Part shown: in pieces, positions 19,221 through 22,769 of the stretch | How positions within the stretch are numbered: the first letter of the stretch is position 1 | How the letters are laid out: each line of letters begins with the position of its first letter | Assembly: GCF_002834295.1 (NCBI RefSeq) | Contig: NZ_PISP01000003.1 | Location: 62,001 to 126,000, forward strand | DNA length: 64,000 nucleotides | Source of the DNA: Rhodohalobacter barkolensis | Lineage (GTDB): Bacteria > Bacteroidota > Rhodothermia > Balneolales > Balneolaceae | Reading direction: 5' to 3' | The notes under the pieces: model-generated | The model's database searches: none | What the model was told of the DNA's origin: nothing | What the model saw: only the letters and a program-made list of their open reading frames with translations | Made by a program: the position numbers and the translations under genes

Positions 19221-20535
<1,315 letters not shown>

Positions 20536-20551
20536 TTTAGGATGATGGATC

Positions 20552-21685
20552 ATGAGTGGACAGAATACATTTTGGGTTCAGTATCAAATTGAGGCATCTG
20601 ACCCGGATGATGCTCAGTTTAAAGCTACGCAAATCAGTATTGAACAGTCCGTGGAGATGCCACCCGATGTAGTACCGGCATCATCCATACATAACATCGC
20701 AGAGGTTCAAAACCTCGAACAAGTTGATGATCACTACTGGCAAGTTGATGATCACTACTGGAATGTAACCATACACTTCAACACCCACCTGGTTGATGGA
20801 GATCCTACCCAGTTCATCAACGTCCTTTTTGGAAATATATCCCTTCAGCCCTGGTGTAAACTTATTGATGCAGACTCAAATTACATTAGCGGATTGCTCA
20901 ACGGGCCCTATTTTGGAATCAAGGGAATCAGACAGCTTGTAAAAGTACAAAAGCGTGCCCTGAGCTGTGCCGTTATTAAACCGATTGGTTCGTCTGCTGT
21001 GGAACTGGCAGAGATGGCATTTCAATTTACTCAAGGCGGAATTGATATCATCAAAGATGATCATGGATTGACTAATCAAAAATCTGCACCGTTTGAAGAC
21101 AGAGTAAAAAAATGTTTGGAAGCCATTCGAAAGGGCGAGCAGATTTCCGGAAAAAAAACACTCTACTTTCCGAACATAACTACCGCACCTACCCAAATAA
21201 TTGCCCAATATAAAAAAGCTGTTCGTCTCGGAGTTGACGGTGTATTGGCAGCACCACAACTTGTGGGACTGGAAACCATACATGAACTGAGCAAACTGGG
21301 TGATGTCCCCATTATGGCTCATCCCACATTCTCAGGATCATATCTGGTTAATCAAAGCGGAATTGACCCTGTATTTTACTTTGGTAAACTGATCCGTGCA
21401 TTTGGAGCAGACGCCATTATCTATCCGAATGCAGATGGACGTTTCTCATTTTCAACAGAAACTTGCAAGGCGATTAACCGTTCTTGCCAAACTCCGATCA
21501 AATCAATAAAACCTGCATTCTCCGCACCCGGTGGCGGCGTAAAACTAAATACCATCCCCGGTTTAGTAGAGCAATATGGTGATGATATAATCTTTTTGAT
21601 TGGTGGGAGTTTATATAAACATCCGGAAGGACTGAGAATCGCGACTCAAAAATTTCAACAGGCTCTTAGAATTCATGAAGAATAA
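20552..21685 (+). CDS. RuBisCO-like protein (form IV)
   Basis: 377 residues with the RuBisCO large-subunit architecture: an N-terminal alpha/beta domain (FWVQYQIEASDPDDAQFKA) and the C-terminal barrel. Barrel landmarks are K143 in CAVIKPIG, GGIDIIKDDHGLTNQ with K168, D169, D170 and H171 (true RuBisCO has KDDE), ANITTAP-like FPNITTAPT, IMAHPTFSGS, and IGGSLYKHPEGLRIATQKF near the end. Replacement of the metal-binding Glu by His and absence of a loop-6 Gly-Lys argue against CO2 fixation. The overlapping cupin gene suggests an enolase/isomerase role on a pentulose 1-phosphate. Codons 57-70 hold a perfect 21-bp tandem duplication. Confidence 0.92.
   Translation: MSGQNTFWVQYQIEASDPDDAQFKATQISIEQSVEMPPDVVPASSIHNIAEVQNLEQVDDHYWQVDDHYWNVTIHFNTHLVDGDPTQFINVLFGNISLQPWCKLIDADSNYISGLLNGPYFGIKGIRQLVKVQKRALSCAVIKPIGSSAVELAEMAFQFTQGGIDIIKDDHGLTNQKSAPFEDRVKKCLEAIRKGEQISGKKTLYFPNITTAPTQIIAQYKKAVRLGVDGVLAAPQLVGLETIHELSKLGDVPIMAHPTFSGSYLVNQSGIDPVFYFGKLIRAFGADAIIYPNADGRFSFSTETCKAINRSCQTPIKSIKPAFSAPGGGVKLNTIPGLVEQYGDDIIFLIGGSLYKHPEGLRIATQKFQQALRIHEE
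20720..20761 (+). repeat. Perfect 21-bp tandem duplication inside the RuBisCO-like gene
   Basis: Positions 20720-20740 and 20741-20761 are identical and in frame, giving QVDDHYW twice in the N-terminal domain. The absence of any mismatch points to a recent slippage event or an assembly artefact. Confidence 0.95.
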
Positions 21686-22127
21686 CTCCAAAATTATAAA
21701 ATCCACAGAGACGGGATGGAGTGGTATAGAACAGAAAAAGTACAAAACAGAGGGTTCAAATTTTAAGAACATCTCCCGCTTTTCTCTTTTGGATGATTCG
21801 ACCCCGGAATTGAATACACATACACGCTATTTCGAAATTGAGCCTGATGGATACTCATCGCTTGAAATGCACAGGCATCCACACAGTGTAGTCGTTCTGA
21901 AGGGATCCGGCTCAGTCATCTTGGACAATCAAATTTCAGAAATTCACACACACGATGTAATCTACATCGCTCCGGAGACCATTCACCAGTTTCAGGCAGA
22001 CAGAGGTGAGACCTTGGGATTCCTCTGCATTGTGGATCGATACAGAGATAAACCGGTAATTCCGTCTGATGATTTTATCCATGCAAATATTCAATCGGAA
22101 AAAGTTTTAAAGAAAATCCGAAAATAG
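21675..22127 (+). CDS. Cupin-domain protein paired with the RuBisCO-like protein
   Basis: 150 residues, start 21675 overlapping the preceding gene by 11 nt. A single cupin barrel: THTRYFEIEPDGYSSLEMHRHPHSVVVLKGSG (described by its ends) carries the metal-ligand motif H-x-H-x2-H-like with a downstream Glu-less pattern, and DVIYIAPETIHQFQA supplies the second motif His. The layout RYFEI-x-PDG-S-LE-H-H-H and the LGFLCIVDRYRDKP tail resemble what I recall of the cupin that partners the Rhodospirillum RuBisCO-like protein and removes methanethiol from methylthioxylulose 5-phosphate. That substrate is an inference here. Confidence 0.8.
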   Translation: MKNNSKIIKSTETGWSGIEQKKYKTEGSNFKNISRFSLLDDSTPELNTHTRYFEIEPDGYSSLEMHRHPHSVVVLKGSGSVILDNQISEIHTHDVIYIAPETIHQFQADRGETLGFLCIVDRYRDKPVIPSDDFIHANIQSEKVLKKIRK

Positions 22128-22175: not shown

Positions 22176-22238
22176 GCGGGAATAGCTCAGTGGTAGAGCA
22201 TCCCGAGACTTCGGGACCAAGGTGGGGTTGCGAAACCT
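22176..22238 (+). pseudogene. tRNA-Gly remnant 1
   Basis: The first 25 nt (GCGGGAATAGCTCAGTGGTA...) are identical to the intact tRNA-Gly at 22272, then the anticodon arm is replaced by the hairpin TCCCGA-gact-TCGGGA (22201-22216) followed by CCAAGGTGGGG. The T-arm and 3' acceptor strand are missing, so it cannot fold as a tRNA. Confidence 0.85.
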
Positions 22239-22271
22239 TTTGATTTACTGAATATTATATACCAAACACCA

Positions 22272-22343
22272 GCGGGAATAGCTCAGTGGTAGAGCACAAC
22301 CTTGCCAAGGTTGGGGTCGCGAGTTCAAATCTCGTTTCCCGCT
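22272..22343 (+). tRNA. tRNA-Gly (anticodon GCC)
   Basis: 72 nt. The acceptor stem GCGGGAA/TTCCCGC, D-arm AGCTCAGTGGTAGAGC, anticodon stem CAACC/GGTTG with loop TTGCCAA (anticodon GCC) and T-arm CGCGAGTTCAAATCTCG all pair. CCA is not encoded. Decayed copies lie 96 nt upstream and about 490 nt downstream, and a GIY-YIG gene lies between this copy and the downstream one. Confidence 0.97.
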
Positions 22344-22348
22344 CATGG

Positions 22349-22384: not shown

Positions 22385-22502
22385 TTTCAGCCTTTCAACT
22401 CTACTGCTTTGTTTATTATTACTGCTGAGATTTTCCGGTCTTTTTATAAGTTTAAAATAGAAAGTTTTAAGCTTATTTTGTTTGCGATCCAGTTCGAGAG
22501 AA

Positions 22503-22769
22503 ATGTTCTATACGTATATCATATTTAGCAAATCGAAGAACAGATATTATACAGGTTACACATCTTCTACTCCTCAGGATAGATTAAACCGACACAATAA
22601 TGGAATGACCCCTTCAACAAAATCAGGTATACCCTGGGAACTTGTATTCTTTAAATCATTTGACAGTAAATCTGACGCAATCAAGTTCGAAAACTTCATC
22701 AAGAGGCAGAAAAGCCAAATATTTATCAAAAAATTAATTGCTTCAAATAAGAATGAGTTTCCAGAATAG
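22503..22769 (+). CDS. Small free-standing GIY-YIG endonuclease (UPF0213/YhbQ type)
   Basis: 88 residues from ATG 22503 (a paralogous remnant starts at the equivalent ATG). The domain shows FYTYIIFSKSKNRYYTGYTSS (the GIY...YIG strands, here YII...YTG), R and H in DRLNRHNNG, and the metal-binding Glu in AIKFENFIKR. It is the length of a lone nuclease domain with no DNA-binding extension. The stop codon TAG is part of the sequence GAATAGCTCAG that starts the downstream tRNA remnant, so the gene fills the space between two tRNA copies. Confidence 0.88.
   Translation: MFYTYIIFSKSKNRYYTGYTSSTPQDRLNRHNNGMTPSTKSGIPWELVFFKSFDSKSDAIKFENFIKRQKSQIFIKKLIASNKNEFPE

Follow-up and report, generated by a model that had tools for sequence, protein, structure and literature searches.

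A RuBisCO-like protein and a cupin encoded by overlapping genes of Rhodohalobacter barkolensis: a probable terminal pair of the MTA-isoprenoid shunt

Two overlapping genes of Rhodohalobacter barkolensis, located in the 64,000-nucleotide stretch of DNA analyzed here (the window), very probably encode the last two enzymes of the 5'-methylthioadenosine (MTA)-isoprenoid shunt of the R. rubrum and R. palustris type, as judged from their sequences. In other bacteria, such a pair turns MTA, a sulfur-bearing by-product of SAM metabolism, into methanethiol and a precursor of isoprenoids. A preliminary description had put forward such a pair as a candidate, and the proposal is supported by the position of the RuBisCO-like protein (RLP) in its family tree, by the presence of MtnA in the genome, and by an incomplete standard methionine salvage set. 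The pair is a well-conserved example of a known pathway and not a new system. RLP-cupin pairs have already been noted in Meiothermus, Nitrococcus, and Halorhodospira, and the shunt has been proposed by homology for a few other genera (PMC4958253), while a survey of genomes devoid of Dxs reports it in very few of them (PMC10663253). The papers found by our literature search, the coverage of which is incomplete, do not treat Balneolota RLPs, which is weak evidence of novelty. The present assignment would extend a route elucidated in two species of purple bacteria to the Balneolota, in which it appears widespread, and to the Gemmatimonadota, the Ectothiorhodospiraceae, and others.

The gene pair and its genomic neighborhood

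The first gene (positions 20552-21685, + strand, ATG start) encodes the RLP, a 377-residue protein assigned to RuBisCO_large by Pfam (E=7.7e-22) and predicted to be a 5-methylthioribulose-1-phosphate 1,3-isomerase of the DeepYkr/KDDH clade. The ensuing gene (positions 21675-22127, + strand, ATG start) encodes a 150-residue protein assigned to Cupin_2 (E=5.7e-08), the putative 1-methylthioxylulose-5-phosphate methylsulfurylase. The end of the RLP gene overlaps the start of the cupin gene by 11 nt (21675-21685, + strand), as compared with 8 nt in the closest relative (locus L006). The two reading frames and their Pfam assignments thus agree with the initial account of an RLP with KDDH for KDDE, overlapped by a cupin; that account also called the pair fused, a loose term for genes that overlap but encode two separate proteins.

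The purA gene (19249-20535, + strand) ends 16 nt upstream of the RLP gene, and purA, RLP, and cupin are probably co-transcribed. Although outside the pathway proper, purA is a conserved neighbor in the Balneolota: the purA-RLP-cupin order is found in 13 of 17 Balneolales loci, again in the Balneolota loci of the named collection, and in G235, a genome of the same genus that is the closest relative by its RLP. In the four other Balneolales loci, the cupin lies 5-12 kb off and the RLP is near purF. The Gemmatimonadota and Ectothiorhodospiraceae possess the RLP-cupin pair without purA nearby. Recurrence of the pair across the Balneolota and several other phyla indicates that the pairing is not due to chance. 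The setting behind purA, which had been proposed as new for this route, is a conserved gene order of the Balneolota, was not seen beside the pair in other phyla, and is only suggestive as to a functional link with adenine salvage. Adenine freed at MTA cleavage gives a plausible reason for having purA as a neighbor, in agreement with R. rubrum, in which growth on MTA lowers PurA 12-fold (PMC4958253); since purA adjoins the pair only in the Balneolota, this link stays speculation.

Downstream of the cupin gene, the window contains an incomplete, disrupted tRNA-Gly gene copy (22178-22240), an intact tRNA-Gly(GCC) just beyond it (22272-22344), and a small GIY-YIG-like ORF (22482-22769). A GIY-YIG-like ORF is also found 3' of the cupin gene in L006 (3301-3603).

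The RLP belongs to a clade marked by KDDH

The best solved relative of the RLP by sequence is 3qfw (1.9e-59; ~30% identity), an R. palustris RLP other than rlp2 (2qyg). We infer that 3qfw is RPA2169 itself, and it served here as the reference isomerase in place of the R. rubrum RLP Rru_A1998. The AlphaFold model of the window RLP (mean pLDDT 93.1, pTM 0.92) likewise returns 3qfw as its best fold match in the PDB (TM 0.87/0.93, rmsd 2.0). In a maximum-likelihood tree of 93 rows, built with a quick method, supported by SH-aLRT values only and partly resolved in its branch order inside the KDDH clade, 3qfw and the window RLP share one clade (SH-aLRT 99) with every relative that has a cupin or transketolase partner, while MtnW, IV-Photo, OiaX, related RLPs, and form I all fall outside. 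The preliminary description would have taken placement in a clade with another established activity as a refutation; the RLP groups with none of these but with 3qfw.

The KDDH motif (21053-21064, + strand; RLP residues 168-171) is the equivalent of the KDDE motif of RuBisCO. It is present in 108 out of 108 clade members of the alignment, as compared with KDDE in 11 out of 11 outgroup rows. KDDH is the signature of this RLP clade, for which it provides a simple sequence marker and, being common to the whole clade, it is no peculiarity of the window gene. RuBisCO carboxylases combine KDDE with a conserved loop-6 lysine; the window RLP has KDDH instead, and although it has K at the position corresponding to loop 6, this residue varies across the clade (K, Q, E, or T). 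The NCBIfam equivalog models are consistent with this placement, the RLP scoring far below the cut-offs of both MtnW models (201.8 vs 409 bits and 156.8 vs 513.6 bits), of OiaX (73.4 vs 700 bits), and of RuBisCO III.

The pair formed in R. palustris by RLP1 (RPA2169) and the cupin RPA2170 resembles that of the window in RLP clade, KDDH motif, fold, adjacency of RLP and cupin, and location of MtnA elsewhere in the genome. RLP1 produces 1-methylthioxylulose-5-phosphate in vitro, with a kcat of about 1.3 per s on 5-methylthioribulose-1-phosphate, and deletion of the cupin leads to accumulation of 1-methylthioxylulose-5-phosphate (PMC5893883). The window pair differs in the low identity of its RLP to RLP1 (~30%), in having purA upstream, in the absence of a recognized MtnP, and in an RLP whose N-terminal domain carries a 7-residue tandem duplication. 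The latter stems from a perfect 21-bp tandem duplication (20720-20761) encoding QVDDHYW twice (residues 57-70). Just 2 of the 119 rows of the alignment fill its additional columns, and the pLDDT of residues 61-63 is <50; the duplication is recent, in frame, and situated in a loop.

The cupin resembles the R. rubrum methylsulfurylase and co-occurs with MtnA

The cupin has three strong solved relatives in the PDB, 3ibm (1.7e-29), 3kgz (9.8e-28), and 3jzv (1.7e-24). The last of these is labelled Rru_A2000 in the PDB, and the match covers residues 12-133. Rru_A2000 is the methylthioxylulose-5-phosphate methylsulfurylase of R. rubrum (PMC4958253), and the window cupin is thus homologous to it over most of its length, within the same pathway logic as the Rru_A1998 (MTRu-1P isomerase)/Rru_A2000 (MTXu-5P methylsulfurylase) pair. 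The HxHxH motif (H66, H68, and H70; 21870-21884, + strand) and a downstream histidine, H104 (21984-21986, + strand), are the predicted metal ligands, H104 being the fourth; they align with those of 3ibm, 3kgz, and Rru_A2000, and are also present in the cupin relatives.

In a survey of the class, all 26 genomes with this RLP also possess the cupin and MtnA, and same-genus relatives without the RLP are also devoid of the cupin. Among 117 genomes of the class, MtnA is found in 38 out of 38 with the cupin vs 18 out of 79 without it (Fisher p=2.5e-17 by genome and 5e-7 by genus, p-values that ignore kinship). MtnA without either RLP or cupin is found in G108 and G203, of the same genus, and in G159, G263, G279, G294, and G331, of genus g5. 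The aldolase (DHAP) shunt is a candidate route after methylthioribulose-1-phosphate in these MtnA-only relatives.

Pathway genes and proposed reactions

Most of the flanking pathway genes are present in the host genome (3.6 Mb, 97% complete). Besides MtnA (locus L001; 452 bits vs a cut-off of 279), for which the preliminary description had suggested a search, it encodes an O-acetylhomoserine sulfhydrylase (691 bits vs 495), a spermidine synthase, and Dxs. The presence of Dxs rules out the shunt as the only source of 1-deoxyxylulose-5-phosphate (DXP), the supply of which is therefore not the sole purpose of the pair. ARD/MtnD was not detected in this genome, which thus lacks a complete standard methionine salvage set. 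Weak ARD matches in relatives (21-35 bits, covering part of the model only) look like cross-matches to other cupins.

The search for MTA-processing genes succeeded with MtnA but returned no recognized MTA phosphorylase or nucleosidase, yielding only PNP-II proteins below the MTA phosphorylase cut-off. No MTA phosphorylase scores above the curated cut-off in any of the 117 class genomes, although 56 of them carry MtnA, and no MTA nucleosidase is found among the three PNP_UDP_1 proteins of the host, which are two PNP-II enzymes and one AMP nucleosidase. In contrast, R. rubrum has a recognized MTA phosphorylase, Rru_A0361, adjoining its MtnA, Rru_A0360. One of the PNP-II proteins, L002, carries an Asp within its ITD motif, at what we take to be the position of Asn243 in human PNP. 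Solved bacterial PNPs have the same Asp, however, and L002 is therefore no more than a lead for the MTA phosphorylase. A route through an MTA deaminase, converting MTA to methylthioinosine ahead of PNP, was also considered: the five amidohydrolase matches read, out of 20, appear to be secreted, imidazolonepropionase-like, or dihydroorotase-like, and none of the five is an obvious MTA deaminase. The dependable RLP-cupin-MtnA module devoid of a recognized MTA phosphorylase points to a first enzyme still to be assigned.

In the proposed route, MTA released by spermidine synthase would be cleaved by a phosphorylase, possibly L002, into adenine and methylthioribose-1-phosphate, which MtnA would convert to 5-methylthioribulose-1-phosphate. 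The RLP would then shift the carbonyl to yield 1-methylthioxylulose-5-phosphate, presumably in a site with a carbamylated Lys168 and a Mg ion held by Asp170 and His171. The cupin, acting as a His-ligated metal enzyme, would split this compound into methanethiol and DXP. DXP would enter the MEP isoprenoid route, and methanethiol would be recycled to methionine via O-acetylhomoserine sulfhydrylase. The substrate, the activities, and this direction of flux are inferred from homology.

Alternative functions of the pair

An improbable alternative is that the pair serves mainly in 5'-deoxyadenosine salvage, with the RLP isomerizing 5-deoxyribulose-1-phosphate, derived from radical-SAM waste, directly to DXP, and the cupin being needed just for the methylthio form. 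The chemistry is compatible, the same 1,3-isomerization of 5-deoxyribulose-1-phosphate yielding DXP directly, and the R. rubrum MTA phosphorylase also accepts 5'-deoxyadenosine (PMC4958253). However, the cupin would then be superfluous, yet it accompanies the RLP in 26 out of 26 class genomes.

The chance that the pair acts on another sugar phosphate, with no tie to MTA, appears just as slim. It would account for the lack of a recognized MTA-cleaving first enzyme, and some RLPs serve in apiose catabolism (OiaX; PMC6302742). Against it stand the strict co-occurrence with MtnA and the RLP relatives located in mtnK-mtnA operons; the apiose role itself is ruled out by the OiaX score and by the position of OiaX outside the clade.

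Least likely of all is a standard methionine salvage in which the RLP would be MtnW, the 2,3-diketo-5-methylthiopentyl-1-phosphate enolase, and the cupin an MtnD-like dioxygenase: although the top NCBIfam names for the RLP are MtnW models and standard salvage also finishes with a cupin-fold dioxygenase, this reading is largely refuted by the scores far under the MtnW cut-offs, the separate KDDE-bearing branch of MtnW, the absence of ARD/MtnD, and the match of the cupin with Rru_A2000 instead. What MtnW does have in common with the RLP is the RuBisCO fold and, by the present prediction, an MTA-derived substrate.

Relatives associated with transketolase half-subunits

KDDH RLPs with another partner exist, and membership of the RLP clade by itself is thus not enough to assign the pathway. 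In 27 of the 93 tree rows, transketolase half-subunits are encoded directly upstream of the RLP, and none of these 27 loci has an adjoining cupin. In five of them, the operon also includes mtnK and mtnA. In L134 (2053-5116), the N half-subunit corresponds to Transketolase_N and the C half-subunit to Transket_pyr plus Transketolase_C; L083, L089, L095, L098, L106, L109, and L135 are further examples. The hosts belong to the Clostridia, Spirochaetes, Chloroflexi, Nitrospirota, Rhizobiaceae (on plasmids), and others. These RLPs, such as those of Clostridium ljungdahlii, Alkalispirochaeta, and Rhizobiaceae plasmids, belong to the same clade as the window RLP, and several lie in mtnK-mtnA operons, but they have two transketolase half-subunits beside them and no cupin.

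Our literature search found no paper joining transketolase with methionine salvage and methanethiol. The association of the RLP and transketolase genes leads us to propose, tentatively and at rather less than even odds, that two MTA routes share the KDDH RLP as an interchangeable front end. Paired with the cupin, as in the window, it would lead to DXP and methanethiol; with a two-subunit, thiamine-diphosphate-dependent transketolase, methylthioxylulose-5-phosphate might be cleaved to glyceraldehyde-3-phosphate and a C2 fragment, and elimination of methanethiol from this fragment would leave acetate or acetyl phosphate. If this is true, the transketolase route would represent an undescribed oxygen-independent methionine salvage and a new way to free methanethiol from MTA, and this side finding may matter more than the window pair itself. 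In the tree, the transketolase-linked RLPs make up most of one branch; two Firmicutes on that branch have a cupin in place of the transketolase.
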